Virus record (IMG/VR): IMGVR_UViG_3300042260_000399 | Location: 1-33,367 of that record | Source: a virus | Direction: 5' to 3' (one strand) | DNA length: 33,367 nucleotides | In this document: one piece after another, positions 16,007 through 33,367 of the stretch | Numbering within the stretch: position 1 is the stretch's first letter | Layout of the letters: every line of letters starts with the position of its first letter | Position numbers and translations under genes: made by a program | The notes under the pieces: model-generated | Told to the model about the DNA's origin: nothing | Database searches by the model: none | What the model saw: the letters and a program-made list of their open reading frames with translations, nothing else

Positions 16007-16509
16007 GTCTCGATGCTCACCTTCACGCTTGGACCGTCGAGGTCTTTGTTGAGGCTGGCGAGCACCGATTCGCCGGCGAGTTGCATCAGGCCGAGGCGCA
16101 GGCGGGCGGCGAGGGTCAGGCCGAATTCGTTGGCGAGGCGCAGGTAGATGTTCGCTTCGTCGCGGGCGACCTTGATCATCGGGTTGACCATTGGACCGCG
16201 TGGACCTTTGACAAGGACGCCGGTCTCGGTGATCTTGCGGCGGGCTTCGAAGTGGACGTAGGCGCTGTGGCACATCATGGCGACGGCTTCGACGTCAGCT
16301 TCGCGCAGACCGCGTGGACCGAGCTCGGCAACTACACGCCGGAACATGTCTTGAGCTTCAGGCGCGAGGTCAGCGGGCGGTTCAATCAACGAGCTCTTGT
16401 TGCTGGCGATCGGTGCTATCTCGACGGCAGGCTTTGCTTCGCCTGGCTTTGGTCTATGACCGGTGCCCCGATTGGCGCGGGTAGGGTCGGCGGGTCTTCC
16501 TTTAGCCAT
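16003..16509 (-). CDS. Terminase small subunit (P27 family)
   Basis: 168 residues. It has a basic, disordered start (MAKGRPADPTRANRGTGHRP), followed by the P27 core: ADLAPEAQDMFRRVVAELGP, then READVEAVAMMCHSAYVHFE and NPMIKVARDEANIYLRLANE, with an FGLTLAARLRLG helix. It binds the packaging site and loads the large subunit. It overlaps the methyltransferase gene by 8 bases. P27-type phages usually package from cos ends with help from an HNH nuclease; the HNH gene at 18875-19156 is the likely partner. Confidence 0.92.
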   Translation of the reverse strand: MAKGRPADPTRANRGTGHRPKPGEAKPAVEIAPIASNKSSLIEPPADLAPEAQDMFRRVVAELGPRGLREADVEAVAMMCHSAYVHFEARRKITETGVLVKGPRGPMVNPMIKVARDEANIYLRLANEFGLTLAARLRLGLMQLAGESVLASLNKDLDGPSVKVSIET

Positions 16510-17776
16510 CGTTGCCTACTCGAACGGCTTCGCGACCGGTTAGGCGCTCCCACCGCTTGACGATGACGTCGCAGTAGACCGGGTCGAGCTCCATCGTGTA
16601 GCAGCGGCGGTCAAGTTGAGCGCTGGCAATGAGCGTTGAGCCTGAGCCGCCGAACGGATCGAGGACGAGGTCTCCGCGCTTGGTGGAGTTCTGCACCATG
16701 CGTGCCACAAGCTTGATTGGCTTCATGGTCGGGTGCTCGTCGTTCCTCTGCGGGCGTTCCTCGCGGATGATGGTCGAGTTGGCGCGGATCTCGGCGAGCA
16801 TCTGAACCAGCTGGTCCTTCTTCAGCGCGGCTAGGTCGGTCTCGTCGTCGATGACGGTGGAGCGATTGAACGGACCAAACCAGTTGTGCGCTGCGCCGTC
16901 TTTCCAGCCGTAGAGGATTGGTTCGTGTTGCCAGTTGTAGTCCTGGCGGCTGAGGACGAAGCGGTCTTTGACCCAGATCAGGCATTGCTTGAGCAGGAAG
17001 CCGGCGTCAGCGAAGGCGCGGCGGAAGGTGTTGCTGGCGCTGTCGGCGTGGCAGACGTAGATTGCACCGCCTGCCTTGATGCTTTCGGACATGCGGTTGT
17101 AGGCCTCGCGCATGAAGACGTCGAATTCCTCTTCGCTCATCGAGTCGTTCTTGATGGTGAGTGCGTCCTTCGTTCCACCGACGTAGGCGACGTTGTAGGG
17201 CGGATCGGTGAAGATGCAGTCGGCGAGCTTTCCGTCCATGAGCACTTGGAAGTCCGCTGGGCTAGTCGAATCGCCGCACATCAGGCGGTTGTCGCCGAGT
17301 ATCCAGATGTCGCCTGGCTTGGTGGTTGGCTCGACTGGCGGCTCTGGAATTTCGTCTTCGACCACGTCGGGCTCACCGTCGGGGCGCAGCTCCTCGAAGC
17401 CGAGGGACGTGGTATCCCAGCCGGCTTGGTTCAGCTCCCCGAGGGTGGCCTCGAGGATCGTCTCGTCCCATGTCGCGAGCTCGGCGGTGCGGTTGTCGGC
17501 TAGGGCGTAAGCCTTGGCGCGTTCGTCGCTCCAGTCTTCAGGAGTGCGGGCAATCGCAATCTCTGTCCAGCCGAGAGCCTTGGCGGCCTCGACGGTGCCG
17601 TTGCCGGCGATGACCACACCGGCGTGGGTGACGACGATTGGTTTACGCTGCCCGAACTCGCGCAGGCTCGCGGAGATGGCGTCTAGGTTTCGCTGATCAT
17701 GCTTGCGGGCGTTCTTCGGGTCCGGGGTGAGCGAGTCAATGGCGACGGTCTCGAGCTGGAGGGTTGGTGCGTTCAT
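16502..17776 (-). CDS. ParB-like domain fused to beta-class DNA methyltransferase
   Basis: 424 residues. Residues 1-115 are a ParB/Srx-like domain (IDSLTPDPKNARKHDQRNL, then RKPIVVTHAGVVIAGNGTVE). Residues about 155-420 are an N6-adenine/N4-cytosine methyltransferase with motif IV TDPPY at 190-194 before the SAM-binding FGGSGST at 375-381, the order of the beta class. HPTMKP near 340 is also characteristic. Such fusions occur in many actinophages and may protect phage DNA from host nucleases; the target sequence is unknown. It overlaps the zinc-finger gene by ATGA, so methylation is coupled to the late operon. Confidence 0.92.
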   Translation of the reverse strand: MNAPTLQLETVAIDSLTPDPKNARKHDQRNLDAISASLREFGQRKPIVVTHAGVVIAGNGTVEAAKALGWTEIAIARTPEDWSDERAKAYALADNRTAELATWDETILEATLGELNQAGWDTTSLGFEELRPDGEPDVVEDEIPEPPVEPTTKPGDIWILGDNRLMCGDSTSPADFQVLMDGKLADCIFTDPPYNVAYVGGTKDALTIKNDSMSEEEFDVFMREAYNRMSESIKAGGAIYVCHADSASNTFRRAFADAGFLLKQCLIWVKDRFVLSRQDYNWQHEPILYGWKDGAAHNWFGPFNRSTVIDDETDLAALKKDQLVQMLAEIRANSTIIREERPQRNDEHPTMKPIKLVARMVQNSTKRGDLVLDPFGGSGSTLIASAQLDRRCYTMELDPVYCDVIVKRWERLTGREAVRVGNDG

Positions 17777-25017: not shown

Positions 25018-25230
25018 TTACCTAATCGAACGACGAGCTGTTATCGAATCGTTATCAACATTGATTTCGATGGGTTTGGTGTCTCTCTGGATCAGGAAGA
25101 AGCGGTTATCGCCCGAGTGGACGATGGTTGCGTCTCGGCCTTCGTCCATGTGGCTTGCGATCCATGCGAGCAGACGGCGAGCGCCTTGGCGTCGGTAGTG
25201 GTTGCGGACTGATTTGCCTGGGGTGTTCAT
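25018..25230 (-). CDS. Small early protein of unknown function
   Basis: 70 residues: MNTPGKSVRNHYRRQGARRL then ASHMDEGRDATIVHSGDNRF and FLIQRDTKPIEINVDNDSIT. A basic helix is followed by a beta hairpin. ATGA overlap with the kinase-fusion gene fixes the frame. Its last codons contain the double GATAAC repeat described at 25041-25056. No function is recognised. Confidence 0.7.
   Translation of the reverse strand: MNTPGKSVRNHYRRQGARRLLAWIASHMDEGRDATIVHSGDNRFFLIQRDTKPIEINVDNDSITARRSIR
25041..25056. repeat. TTATCGAATCGTTATC repeat (copy 1)
   Basis: Two GTTATC units one helical turn apart, in the 3' end of the 70-residue gene. A copy with a single difference lies at 27778-27793 over the endolysin stop codon. 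The 10-bp phasing and rarity suggest protein-binding sites. Confidence 0.45.
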
Positions 25231-26135
25231 GCGTTTACAACTTTTGGTGCTGCGAGTGCGAACTCGACTTGCTTGTAGAGGTGAGAGAGGCTGTTGTCGT
25301 TGGTGATGCGCGCGTCGAACTCGTACTTGTCGAGTGCGTGCTCGCTTGGGTGAGCGTTGGCCGCTGAGATGCCTGGACGGTCGATGCGCCAGATCTCGCC
25401 ACCGATGGCTCTGATGGCTTCGGCTTCGTTTGGGAAGCGCACGTCGGTGAAGACAACCTTCGCGCCGTCTGGTATCTGACGCATGGCCTGATCGACCCAG
25501 AAGCTATCGCCGAACATGTCGCGCCCGACCTCGGTGCCGAAGCGTTGCATGAGCGGGCGCACGCGCTTGCTAGTGCTCTTCAGCATTTCCCAGCCGAAGT
25601 TGTCGACGGCGCTGCGTAGTGGCACTCCCTGGTAGTCATCCACGTCCACGTCTGGGTTGAGGCGGTAGAGAGCTTCGCGGATCTGATTAGCGAACGCGGC
25701 CTTCTCGTAGCCGTGTGCCTTGACGAGGAAGTCGCCGGCTGTGTCCTTGCCTGAGCGTGCGTAGCCAGATAGGCCGATGGCTCGGACGCGTGGCTTCAAG
25801 CGACCGTTGCGAAGGATGAGCAGTGGCAGACCGATGGCAGTTGCGACGTGCACCTCGAGGCGAGCGCCCTTTGAATCCTGCCAGCCTGGGAGCACGACGA
25901 GTGCGTCGACGTCCATGACTTGCGGCAGATCTCGCTTCATGTAGTAAGCCCAAGGGTGGTTCGGTCGTTCTGGTGATCCAGCTGCGGCCAGAGCTTCTTC
26001 GAGTGTGTCGCCGTCGTTGGTGGCTGGGTTGAGCACTTGATGCCCAAGGGCGCGAAGCTCGGCTTCGGCCTGAAAGAACGCTGGGTAGTTCCAATCTGGG
26101 ATCCCGGTCATTGGACCGGCGATGTATAGCTTCAT
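25227..26135 (-). CDS. DUF4406 domain fused to deoxynucleoside monophosphate kinase
   Basis: 302 residues. Residues 1-110 match DUF4406 (YIAGPMTGIPDWNYPAF, then VDALVVLPGWQDSKGARLEV), a relative of nucleoside 2-deoxyribosyltransferases. Residues 118-300 carry a P-loop (GLSGYARSGKDT at 121-132) and VVFTDVRFPNEAEAI of the T4 gp1-type deoxynucleoside monophosphate kinase family. The kinase would raise dNDP supply; the first domain may handle the same nucleotide pool, perhaps base exchange or a modified nucleotide. Fusion of the two makes a shared substrate likely, but this is inference. It shares ATGA overlaps with both neighbours. Confidence 0.87.
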   Translation of the reverse strand: MKLYIAGPMTGIPDWNYPAFFQAEAELRALGHQVLNPATNDGDTLEEALAAAGSPERPNHPWAYYMKRDLPQVMDVDALVVLPGWQDSKGARLEVHVATAIGLPLLILRNGRLKPRVRAIGLSGYARSGKDTAGDFLVKAHGYEKAAFANQIREALYRLNPDVDVDDYQGVPLRSAVDNFGWEMLKSTSKRVRPLMQRFGTEVGRDMFGDSFWVDQAMRQIPDGAKVVFTDVRFPNEAEAIRAIGGEIWRIDRPGISAANAHPSEHALDKYEFDARITNDNSLSHLYKQVEFALAAPKVVNA

Positions 26136-30703: not shown

Positions 30704-30886
30704 TTACTGCCTATCTGTTTCGTGTTGGAGCCAGGTCTCGAGGGCTTGGCGTGGGATGCGGATGTTGCGTCCTATCCGCAGGTGGGGGAGTCGGTTCGCT
30801 CTAATCAGGTCGTAGGCGGTGTTTTTGCCTACGCCGAGCTCGCGAGCCGCCTCGCTGACCGAGAGTGTGAGTCGGTCAGTGGCCAT
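30704..30886 (-). CDS. xis: Excisionase-type HTH protein
   Basis: 60 residues from the ATG at 30886 (inside the end of the Cro-like gene): LTLSVSEAARELGVGKNTAY, then RLPHLRIGRNIRIPRQALET and WLQHETDRQ. It is an HTH_17/AlpA-like winged helix as in phage excisionases. It would bend attP/attR DNA with the integrase to direct excision. It is the second gene of the early operon. Confidence 0.85.
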   Translation of the reverse strand: MATDRLTLSVSEAARELGVGKNTAYDLIRANRLPHLRIGRNIRIPRQALETWLQHETDRQ

Positions 30887-31094
30887 TGATGCTGGCGATG
30901 TCCGTGGGCTGGACACCTAGAGCTTCGGCGAGCGCCTTGATGGTGACGAGGTTGGGTTGGCGCTTGCCAGTCTCGGCGTCGCAGACGGTCGCGGAGCGGA
31001 TACCCGCGAGCCTGCCGAGGGCGGTCTGGCTGAGTGCCCGTTCCAGGCGCAGGATTTTCAGTCTCTGTGGATCAAGTTGCAGGCCGGGGGGCAT
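30876..31094 (-). CDS. Cro-like XRE regulator
   Basis: 72 residues from the ATG at 31094, with a strong AAGGAG ribosome binding site. The HTH runs from LKILRLERALSQTALGRLAG, through IRSATVCDAETGKRQP, to NLVTIKALAEALGVQPTDIA. It is the first gene of the minus-strand operon and faces the repressor, the usual place of Cro. A longer upstream frame crosses the promoter and is not used. Confidence 0.87.
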   Translation of the reverse strand: MPPGLQLDPQRLKILRLERALSQTALGRLAGIRSATVCDAETGKRQPNLVTIKALAEALGVQPTDIASINGH

Positions 31095-31251
31095 GTTGTC
31101 TCCTTCGGTGTCTCGTTGGCGCTGAGCGGTTATATCGCACCGTCTGGGTGTCGTCATCACCGCTAGGGGTAATCGTATCGGTGTAGTAGGGGTTTCGCGC
31201 AAATTCGTGTATCGTGTGGGCGTGTCGCGTGAACCCGACCAGGGAGAAGAG
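31095..31251. promoter_or_regulatory. Divergent lysis/lysogeny control region
   Basis: 157 bases between the two HTH genes. On the minus strand TATAAC (31134-31129) with ATGACG (31157-31152) at a 17-base spacing is a plausible early promoter. Two similar boxes, GTATCGGTGT (31175) and GTATCGTGTG (31209), may be operators; no convincing plus-strand promoter is seen. A GGGAGAAGAG ribosome binding site precedes the repressor ATG at 31252. Confidence 0.6.
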
Positions 31252-31578
31252 ATGCCGTTGTCGAAGAATCCGTTGATAGATCTCGTCGTCTTCGGGCGGT
31301 TAGTTCGAGCGGCGCGGATCATCGCGGGGTTCGAGTCCGTGAAGACTGCGGCGGAAGCTGTCCGTGAGCGAACGGGCATCGTCATAAGCGACCGAACGCT
31401 CTATGCCATCGAGAGGGGTGAGCAAGAACCGACCATCACGCAGCTCGTGGCGTTTGCGATGGCGTTTAACCCACCAGGTGGGCAGGTGTTCTTCGCTCAG
31501 GCGTATCGGGATGATGTGCGGCTGATGTTGCGGGCTGCTCGAGGCACTGGGGGTTTGGCGCAAGATGGCCCATCTTGA
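31252..31578 (+). CDS. Immunity repressor-like XRE protein
   Basis: 108 residues. The HTH lies in residues about 12-72 (FGRLVRAARIIAGFESVKTA, then SDRTLYAIERGEQEPTITQL). A GGGAGAAGAG ribosome binding site precedes the ATG at 31252, so I do not use the longer frame from 31207. It is divergent from the Cro-like gene and overlaps the integrase by 14 bases, so repressor and integrase are made together. No peptidase domain is present, so induction is not by LexA-type self-cleavage. Confidence 0.82.
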   Translation: MPLSKNPLIDLVVFGRLVRAARIIAGFESVKTAAEAVRERTGIVISDRTLYAIERGEQEPTITQLVAFAMAFNPPGGQVFFAQAYRDDVRLMLRAARGTGGLAQDGPS

Positions 31579-32755
31579 AGACCGCTGGCATGACCGCGAC
31601 CGTCAACCGACCGAACTGTTCGGCAAGGGCAAGCGGTGGCGGGTCAGGTATCGCGATCCGTCTGGGCGCGACCGCTCCAAGTCGTTCGAGCGCAAGGACG
31701 ACGCACTTCGGTATGCCCATGACGTCGAGATGCGTATCGACCGCGGGCGCTACATCGACCCAGACCGAGCCAGGGCGACCGTTGGCGAGCTCGCGGAGCA
31801 GTGGTTGGCGACCAAGGCGGCTATCCGTAAGCCGACGACATCGGCAGGCTATGAGTCGCTCTGGAACTCGGTGCTCGAGCCACGCTGGGCGGATGTGCCG
31901 GTGTCTGCCATCGCGCACTCGGACGTGGCGAAGTGGGTGGGTCAGCTGTCCACCAAGTTCTCGCCGTCTCGAACGAGGCAGGCGCACTTGGTTTTTCGTG
32001 CCTTGCTCGACATGGCGGTGAAGGACAGGCGCATTGAGGTGAATCCTGCGCTCGGTGTGGATCTGCCGAGTCTGCCGATGAAGGGTCGCCACCAATACCT
32101 CACGCCTGGACAGGTGAAGGCTCTGGCGGAAGCGTCGGGCGACTATGCGTCGCTGATCTTGACGCTGGGGTTCTGTGGTCTGCGCTGGGGTGAGGCCATC
32201 GCCTTGCAGGTTCAAGACGTCGACGTGCTTCGCCGGCGTATCCACATCCGTCGGAATCTGTCCGAGGTTCACGGCAAGATGGTGGACTCGACTCCGAAGA
32301 CCAACGCCGTCCGCTGGGTGCCGATGCCTGCGCCTGTGTTCGATGCGGTCGAGCCGCTACTTGACGGGCGAGCTCCGAACGACTTGCTGTTCACGACTCC
32401 GGGTGGATACGTCATCCGCCACGGCAACTTCGTCAAGCACTCATTCGCACCAGCCTCGAGCTCGGTCGGGTTGGTCGGGCTGAAGATCCACTCGCTACGG
32501 CATACGGCGGCGAGCATCGCGGTGGCGGCAGGTGCGTCGGTGAAGGACGTTCAACGGATGCTCGGCCACGCGAGGGCGTCGATGACTCTGGACGTGTACG
32601 CCGACCTGTTCGAAGACGACTTGGATGACTTGGCTCGGCGCATCGGCGAGGCCGCTTCGGCTTCGACGTGGACGCCACCGACCAAACTCTCAGGACGCAC
32701 TCAGGACGCACCAGAACGGGACGAGGGGGTATTTGGAGGGATGGGCGGTGACTAA
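31565..32755 (+). CDS. int: Tyrosine-type integrase
   Basis: 396 residues. The N-terminal arm-binding domain (RYRDPSGRDRSKSFERKDDA) and core-binding SAM-like domain (VGELAEQWLATKAAIRKP) are followed by the catalytic domain: R207 (GLRWGE), K245 (TPKTNAVR), H309 and R312 (HSLRHTAA), H335 (MLGHARAS) and nucleophile Y345 (TLDVYADL). All active residues are intact. It recombines the phage attP with a host tRNA-Asn gene; its stop codon lies within the first 18-bp arm repeat of attP. Confidence 0.97.
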   Translation: MAHLEDRWHDRDRQPTELFGKGKRWRVRYRDPSGRDRSKSFERKDDALRYAHDVEMRIDRGRYIDPDRARATVGELAEQWLATKAAIRKPTTSAGYESLWNSVLEPRWADVPVSAIAHSDVAKWVGQLSTKFSPSRTRQAHLVFRALLDMAVKDRRIEVNPALGVDLPSLPMKGRHQYLTPGQVKALAEASGDYASLILTLGFCGLRWGEAIALQVQDVDVLRRRIHIRRNLSEVHGKMVDSTPKTNAVRWVPMPAPVFDAVEPLLDGRAPNDLLFTTPGGYVIRHGNFVKHSFAPASSSVGLVGLKIHSLRHTAASIAVAAGASVKDVQRMLGHARASMTLDVYADLFEDDLDDLARRIGEAASASTWTPPTKLSGRTQDAPERDEGVFGGMGGD

Positions 32756-32770
32756 AACCGCAGGTCAGAG
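32753..32770 (+). repeat. 18-bp attP arm repeat, left copy
   Basis: TAAAACCGCAGGTCAGAG; identical to 32852-32869. It overlaps the integrase stop codon. A probable integrase arm or Xis binding site. Confidence 0.85.
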
Positions 32771-32805
32771 GCTATGTGCACTGGTCAGCGAATCGCCGTA
32801 TCGAT

Positions 32806-32849
32806 CTGTTAATCCGTAGGTTGTGGGTTCGAGTCCCACCCCCGGAGCC
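32806..32849 (+). tRNA. Partial tRNA-Asn(GTT): 3' half, the attP core
   Basis: The sequence starts at the anticodon loop (CTGTTAA, anticodon GTT). It then has the 3' anticodon stem TCCGT, a 5-base variable region, a perfect T arm (GTGGG-TTCGAGT-CCCAC) and the acceptor 3' strand CCCCGGA with discriminator G and CC. The 5' half and a matching 5' anticodon stem are missing, so this is not a functional tRNA. Integration would restore the host gene's 3' end. Confidence 0.9.
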
Positions 32850-32851
32850 GG

Positions 32852-32869
32852 TAAAACCGCAGGTCAGAG
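32852..32869 (+). repeat. 18-bp attP arm repeat, right copy
   Basis: It is identical to 32753-32770 and lies 2 bases after the tRNA-derived core. Confidence 0.85.
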
Positions 32870-32944
32870 ACGGTTTAGGGTGTTTGACTGAATGTCAGTC
32901 AGGACGCTCAGGACGCACACAGGACGCACGAGAATGACCGTAGG

Positions 32945-33014: not shown

Positions 33015-33284
33015 CTAGTTGAAGCCTGATGTGAACAAAACGGTGAGCACCGCCGCGATCAGGATGCCGGCGACGGCACGAACCAACCACTCGAAGCGGT
33101 CTTCCATCTTCTTGATGCGCTCCACGAGGGTCTGCAGGAGATTGCGTGAAGCGATGAAGTCAGCCTGGTACACGTCCTGGCGAACGTAGGACTCTTCGAG
33201 TTTCACCACGACGGCATCGAGCTTCTTGTTGGTCTCATCGAGGCGACGCATAACTTCGCCTAGTGTTGGTTCTTCCAGCGACAC
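33015..33284 (-). CDS. Coiled-coil protein with C-terminal membrane anchor (lysis-associated)
   Basis: 89 residues from the GTG at 33284, five bases after the upstream gene's stop. The N-terminal part has EEPTLGEVMRRLDETNKKLD then VYQADFIASRNLLQTLVERI, a coiled coil, and the C-terminus WLVRAVAGILIAAVLTVLFT is a single membrane helix. This architecture is common next to holin/lysin genes in actinophages. A longer frame (to 33335) overlaps the holin-like gene, so I prefer the GTG. The role is inferred. Confidence 0.8.
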   Translation of the reverse strand: MSLEEPTLGEVMRRLDETNKKLDAVVVKLEESYVRQDVYQADFIASRNLLQTLVERIKKMEDRFEWLVRAVAGILIAAVLTVLFTSGFN

Positions 33285-33289
33285 GACGC

Positions 33290-33367
33290 CTACTTTTTCC
33301 CGACGCCGTATTGCTTGGTCAGCGGCGTGAACCACAAGGCGGCGGCAGCGGAGGCAACCGACAAGGC
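33290..33367 (-). CDS. Holin-like small membrane protein, 5' end cut at the window edge
   Basis: Open from the window edge, the frame reads ALSVASAAAALWFTPLTKQY and ends GVGKK. A short hydrophobic helix is followed by an FTPLTKQYGVG segment seen at the ends of actinophage holin-type proteins. If the window is circular, the start is the GTG at 12 and the whole protein has 29 residues. If not, more N-terminal sequence lies outside the window. Confidence 0.6.
   Translation of the reverse strand, partial: ALSVASAAAALWFTPLTKQYGVGKK

Follow-up and report, generated by a model that had tools for sequence, protein, structure and literature searches.

An intact attP with a tRNA-Asn core in a phage contig probably from Acidimicrobiia hosts, flanked by a repeat that recurs in actinophages

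The attP of phage lambda consists of arm sites, a bending site, the core, a second bending site and three tandem P′ arm sites. Its IHF sites lie between the core and the arms, and cos contains IHF sites as well. A further factor, mIHF, was discovered at the attP of L5. Binding by mIHF has been reported to be non-specific, with no motif emerging from ChIP (PMC3724605, PMC6155035). The attP of Pixie, a mycobacteriophage of subcluster K3, has two direct arm sites on the left, three on the right and an inverted sixth site (PMC3203893).

The window, that is, the whole stretch of DNA analysed here, corresponds to a 33,367-base virus record in IMG/VR. Adjoining the gene for a tyrosine integrase, it carries an intact lambda-type attP at 32690-32927, all parts of which lie on the + strand in the order two TCAGGACGC arms, an 18-bp sequence called M hereafter, a 44-nt core, a second M and three arm units. 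The P arm (32690-32709) is a tandem of two TCAGGACGC units (32690-32698 and 32701-32709) with an 11-bp step, located within the 3′ end of int. The left M (32753-32770, TAAAACCGCAGGTCAGAG) begins with the int stop codon, TAA at 32753-32755. The pentamer TCGAT (32801-32805), probably the left core half-site of the phage, directly precedes the common core (32806-32849), which corresponds to the 3′ 44 nt of tRNA-Asn(GTT), from the anticodon loop CTGTTAA (32806-32812) to GCC. The right M, an exact repeat of this widespread actinophage motif (32852-32869, TAAAACCGCAGGTCAGAG), is found 2 nt past the tRNA end. The P′ arm (32899-32927) holds three arm-type units with 9- and 11-bp steps, TCAGGACGC at 32899-32907 and at 32908-32916, and ACAGGACGC at 32919-32927. 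The preliminary description of this DNA had placed a 44-base core between identical 18-bp repeats, with two arm units inside int on the left and three on the right, and the coordinates agree with it on each of these points. It had also called the arm repeats mirrored, which is correct for their position but not for their orientation, as all repeats are direct and the left and right arm units point the same way.

The repeats are beyond chance expectation. The two TAAAACCGCAGGTCAGAG copies are identical and have no further match in the window at up to three mismatches, and 0 of 100 shuffles contained a match to the 18-mer at that tolerance. The pattern CAGGACGCA has six matches in the window versus 0.52 expected, four of them in the attP stretch, and none of 100 shuffles reached six. 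The left and right 31-bp arm blocks are 90% identical. ARAGORN detected no complete tRNA in the window, as expected of an attP.

The exact 44-mer core was found in six GTDB genomes, five of them titled as Acidimicrobiia or Acidimicrobiaceae MAGs and one as "Actinobacteria bacterium AC_12". In each of the six it ends a complete tRNA-Asn(GTT), which confirms the identity of the core. The proposal of an intact attP is upheld. The bases before the core are GCGGA or CCGGA in the six genomes versus TCGAT in the phage, showing that 32806, where the anticodon loop begins, is the exact start of identity. The position of this boundary, along with the precedent of other tyrosine integrases, leads us to infer that CTGTTAA is the 7-bp overlap region of strand exchange. 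A disrupted anticodon stem had been invoked as the left edge of identity; the edge itself was well placed, but TCGAT is also present left of the core in the attPs of Boilgate and of an independent phage contig, and thus looks like a core half-site and not like a random disruption.

This second contig (L010, IMGVR_UViG_3300035670_000696) shares with the window the identical 44-nt core, TCGAT, the order of the parts and a ACCAGAACGGG sequence following the left arms; it differs in its integrase, which is only 43% identical, in its arm unit, GGGTCAC, and in its degenerate M copies. In the window ACCAGAACGGG is at 32709-32720, on the core side of the left arms. We compared the arm regions of L010 near 10410 and 10660 for this sequence, and near copies of it come after the right arm units in both phages. 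The common ACCAGAACGGG suggests that the arm block may be longer than the 9-bp unit.

Of 395 evenly sampled Acidimicrobiia genomes, only 6 contain the exact core, and 73 encode an integrase related to that of the window (E ≤ 1e-40), with at most 43% identity. The hosts are probably Acidimicrobiia. The preliminary description had predicted actinobacterial genomes with a complete tRNA-Asn ending in the core; such genomes exist, in a narrower group than it foresaw, namely Acidimicrobiia MAGs, one of which is titled only Actinobacteria. A prophage with the window's own integrase was not found among the genomes searched, in which the best relatives show about 43% identity.

Related elements do adjoin tRNA-Asn in this class. 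In genome G079 (locus L158), a complete tRNA-Asn is followed by M (AAACCCCCGGTCAGAG) and then by CAGGACGCGCTCAGGACGC arms, which fall in the 3′-terminal part of a related integrase gene. In G075 (L215), the tRNA-Asn is followed by the CAGGACGCGCTCAGGACGC arm pair, again within an integrase gene, whose product shares 40% identity with that of the window. Both loci thus resemble the window in their tRNA-Asn, their related integrase and a CAGGACGC arm pair within the int 3′ end. At a third locus (L214, in G004, UBA4744), the exact core is followed by an M-like GAAAACCCCAGGTCAGCGG and a decayed integrase of the family; tRNA-Asn and integrase are again as in the window, but the CAGGACGC pair is missing. 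In the 1.9 Mb of DNA examined, tandem CAGGACGC pairs were present only in the window and at the integrase loci L150, L151/L215, L157 and L158, where tandem CAGGACGCGCTCAGGACGC occupies the int 3′ end in Acidimicrobiia. L150 sits at a tRNA-Met. The restriction of these pairs to related integrase loci indicates that the arm unit goes with the integrase, which is how arm-type sites should behave. In all three tRNA-Asn loci int faces the tRNA, whereas int and core are co-oriented in the window; elements of the L158/L215 type are therefore relatives with a rearranged module. The expectation that prophages with the same int would lie directly after tRNA-Asn was met in part: related integrases with the same arm units do adjoin it, but with no more than 43% identity and with int on the opposite side.

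The integrase gene (31565-32755, + strand) encodes a protein of 396 aa that matches the PHROG integrase family (E = 4e-67) and Pfam PF00589 (E = 2e-19). The catalytic R, HxxR, H and Y can be read from the sequence in GLRWGE, HSLRHT, LGH and VYADL, and they are kept in alignments with the L215 and L010 integrases. On the other side of the attP, at 33015-33335 on the - strand, lies a holin/XhlA-like lysis gene (phrog_689, E = 1e-5; the Pfam XhlA match is below cut-off). In L265, one of the loci compared, a 44% identical holin gene is located after the tail genes, and a tail protein is 57% identical to that of the window. This synteny argues that the attP is intact and that the DNA right of the core belongs to the phage. 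If the region were instead an attR-type prophage junction, bordered by host DNA beyond the core, it would likewise read int, arm and 3′ tRNA fragment, but this is very improbable in view of the P′ arm units and the syntenic phage holin gene found there. The preliminary statement that this is not an integrated prophage therefore stands, as the right flank consists of phage lysis genes.

L265 also has tail-fibre genes and, near its end, a membrane protein with LTKQYGIGS, and the right end of the window cuts inside the counterpart of the latter gene. The window is thus one linear, incomplete metagenome contig that lacks a stretch between its ends. We had considered an ORF running across the joined ends of a circular molecule and dropped it, since the comparison with L265 shows that tail-fibre genes and most of the membrane protein are missing there. 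Tandem prophages are a conceivable alternative. Next to int, two opposed and overlapping helix-turn-helix ORFs (30876-31385, - strand, and 31207-31578, + strand) look like an immunity switch, their starts being uncertain. Elsewhere in the window, single proteins combine a ParB-like nuclease domain with a DNA methyltransferase (16502-17776) and DUF4406 with a deoxynucleotide monophosphate kinase domain (25227-26135).

We propose the following course of integration. The tyrosine integrase would bind the core half-sites around CTGTTAA, and its N-terminal domain is predicted to bind the direct TCAGGACGC arm units, two on the left and three on the right. attP would recombine with the tRNA-Asn(GTT) gene of the chromosome. 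At one junction the phage core of 44 nt would restore the 3′ half of the tRNA, and the right M, the P′ arm and the lysis end would come next to it; the other junction would comprise int, the P arm and the displaced 44-nt tRNA fragment. M, which on either side separates the core from the arms, is a common actinophage element and not a signature of the integrase. We consider it very probable that the window holds the intact attP of a temperate siphovirus-like phage, with hosts probably in the Acidimicrobiia, and that it recombines with tRNA-Asn(GTT) as laid out in this model as a whole. For an uncultured phage, the site offers a testable host assignment through the Acidimicrobiia tRNA-Asn. It also provides a candidate integration site in this poorly known class from soils and waters, most of whose members are represented by MAGs. 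No paper on phage integration in Acidimicrobiia surfaced in a limited literature search.

M is a recurrent feature of such junctions. In 17 of 19 tRNA junctions, about half of which had been found through M itself, M at up to three mismatches starts 1 to 6 nt past the tRNA end, a position at which random windows have it in about 0.4% of cases. Nine of the junctions had been reached by core, integrase or prior knowledge, and seven of these contain M; of the other two, Tweety has a truncated M copy and L215 has none. The plan arm, core, M, arm is found in Taj, Tweety, Boilgate, Cheetobro and Pixie. At eight other phage integrase loci sampled, a close M was present only once, in Schmidt, showing that M is recurrent but not universal at int loci.

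The distribution of M extends well beyond integration sites. We found M (17-18 bases) in 345 of 50,697 phage records, all of them actinophages, and in 4 of 72,556 plasmids, all from Streptomyces, and the reversed sequence had no match in the phage records. In a scan of viral contigs that yielded at least 120 stretches, most M copies among the matches listed were not near an integrase of the window's kind, and at least 78 of the contigs listed had a terminase-large-like family, named by eye from its sequence, near M. In a spread sample of 60 records, M was within about 200 bp of the genome end in about 49. Its near edge lies 48-57 bp from the genome end in several clusters, in either orientation (48 bp in Omnicron, 52 in Snenia, 54 in Quink). 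Overall, M was seen mostly near actinophage genome ends and upstream of terminase-like genes. At the right end of Gaia (L178), several M copies, some of them degenerate, stand about 40-50 bp apart beside the genome end, an array that resembles the sites of packaging proteins.

Bacterial chromosomes also contain M. Among 246 Actinomycetota genomes, 22 have a 16-mer of it, at 25 places in total, and none has the reversed control. Five of these copies come after tRNAs, three of them adjoining an integrase, and others are located by dnaA, dnaB, radA and disA; M was found upstream of dnaA, of dnaB and of a P4-type primase. At up to two mismatches, 13 host genomes have 114 sites versus 15 for the reversed sequence, a comparison in which five genomes had been chosen for their exact M copies and the reversed control is imperfect for coding or codon bias. 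In another locus (L195, around 1501), M is part of a stretch of about 150 bp downstream of a ketol-acid reductoisomerase gene, bounded by the long inverted repeat CCCACTTTCAGTACTTTTTC / GAAAAAAGTACTGAAAGTGGG; this stretch may be a mobile element of small size or a MITE-like one. Exact-string searches of papers for M returned no named element; apart from chance primers, the only match was a phiJoe primer, from the int-attP region, that carries CCCGCAGGTCAGAGC (PMC5311408).

What M does can be read in several ways. A tentative reading, somewhat less likely than not, is that M is the site of an actinobacterial, IHF-like DNA-bending host protein that is used both at integration and in packaging near cos. 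Like the IHF sites of lambda, the two M copies separate the core from the arm units, and the recurrence of M close to phage genome ends, independent of orientation, fits a packaging role. Such a protein would also be consistent with the copies upstream of dnaA, dnaB and the P4-type primase, with the restriction to Actinobacteria, from the 345 phage records to the Streptomyces plasmids, with the excess of copies in the 13 host genomes and with a folding signal that is weak over 63 independent M copies. However, the known factor, mIHF, is reported to lack a sequence preference or ChIP motif (PMC3724605, PMC6155035), and these papers report no preference matching M. The low frequency of M at the other int loci sampled, the clear hairpins formed by some copies and the codon bias that the reversed pattern controls for imperfectly also speak against this reading. 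In its broader form, in which M is the recognition sequence of a phylum-wide actinobacterial host protein used at attP and near cos, we put the proposal forward as a conjecture that is somewhat doubtful.

Alternatively, M could act in RNA, as a terminator-like element whose loop is conserved, after the restored tRNA, after genes and near the phage genome end, an explanation we regard as possible yet rather uncertain. The start of M a few nucleotides past tRNA ends argues for it, as do the copies of L188, L158 and Pixie, which are hairpins followed by a U-tract with stems that covary around GGTCA. Unrelated hairpins occupy the same position in L150 and L215, and several M copies come after gene ends, e.g., those of radA and disA. 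Pope et al. report a putative terminator between the core and P3 in CrimD (PMC3203893). Conversely, only 8 of the 63 independent copies surpass the 5th percentile of shuffles in folding, a level that about 3 would reach by chance, the orientation of M after gene ends varies, the right M copy of the window has no unusual stability (z 0.0), and the MrMagoo copy lies between divergent genes. The fold z was below -2 at about 5 of the 19 tRNA junctions, and no known Rfam RNA matched at the gathering threshold.

The preliminary description had implied that the 18-bp repeat is an integrase site, and the repeats do flank the core on both sides, but additional sites for integrase or excisionase that belong to this phage alone are improbable, and we rejected that reading because M keeps its letters in hundreds of unrelated actinophages with unrelated recombination modules, near genome ends and at many loci devoid of an integrase, while the arm letters vary between these phages.

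M matters more than the attP, in that actinobacteria and their phages share one sequence of 16-18 bp, met again and again at attP, close to cos and beside some replication genes. If the host-protein proposal is true, M would be a sequence-specific counterpart of IHF sites where the known mIHF shows no sequence preference, and the protein reading it would be an IHF-like factor with sequence specificity, of which the phylum has been thought devoid. Were M a terminator whose loop is conserved, that too would be new to describe.

The attP itself belongs to a known kind. Like the lambda site, it reads arm, bending site (here M, putatively), core, the same again and three P′ arms, with the difference that the letters of M are other than those in lambda. 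The mycobacteriophages Tweety, Taj, Boilgate and Cheetobro share the succession of arm pair, M-like sequence, core, M and arm pair, and Boilgate also has TCGAT left of the anticodon loop. Their cores derive from other tRNAs, and their arm units are TGTACCC, GTCACCC or CACCCTACGG; the left M-like copy, direct in the window, has the inverted orientation in Tweety, Taj and Cheetobro. Closest in plan is Pixie, with a tyrosine integrase, a core that starts from the anticodon loop of a tRNA 3′ part, two plus three direct arms and an M-like hairpin past the tRNA end. Pixie differs in its tRNA-Lys in place of tRNA-Asn, in its arm unit, TGTACCC, in its host and in the location of its attP on the 5′ side of int, the 3′ side being used in the window. 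The site is thus familiar in design, and M is the interesting lead that it provides.
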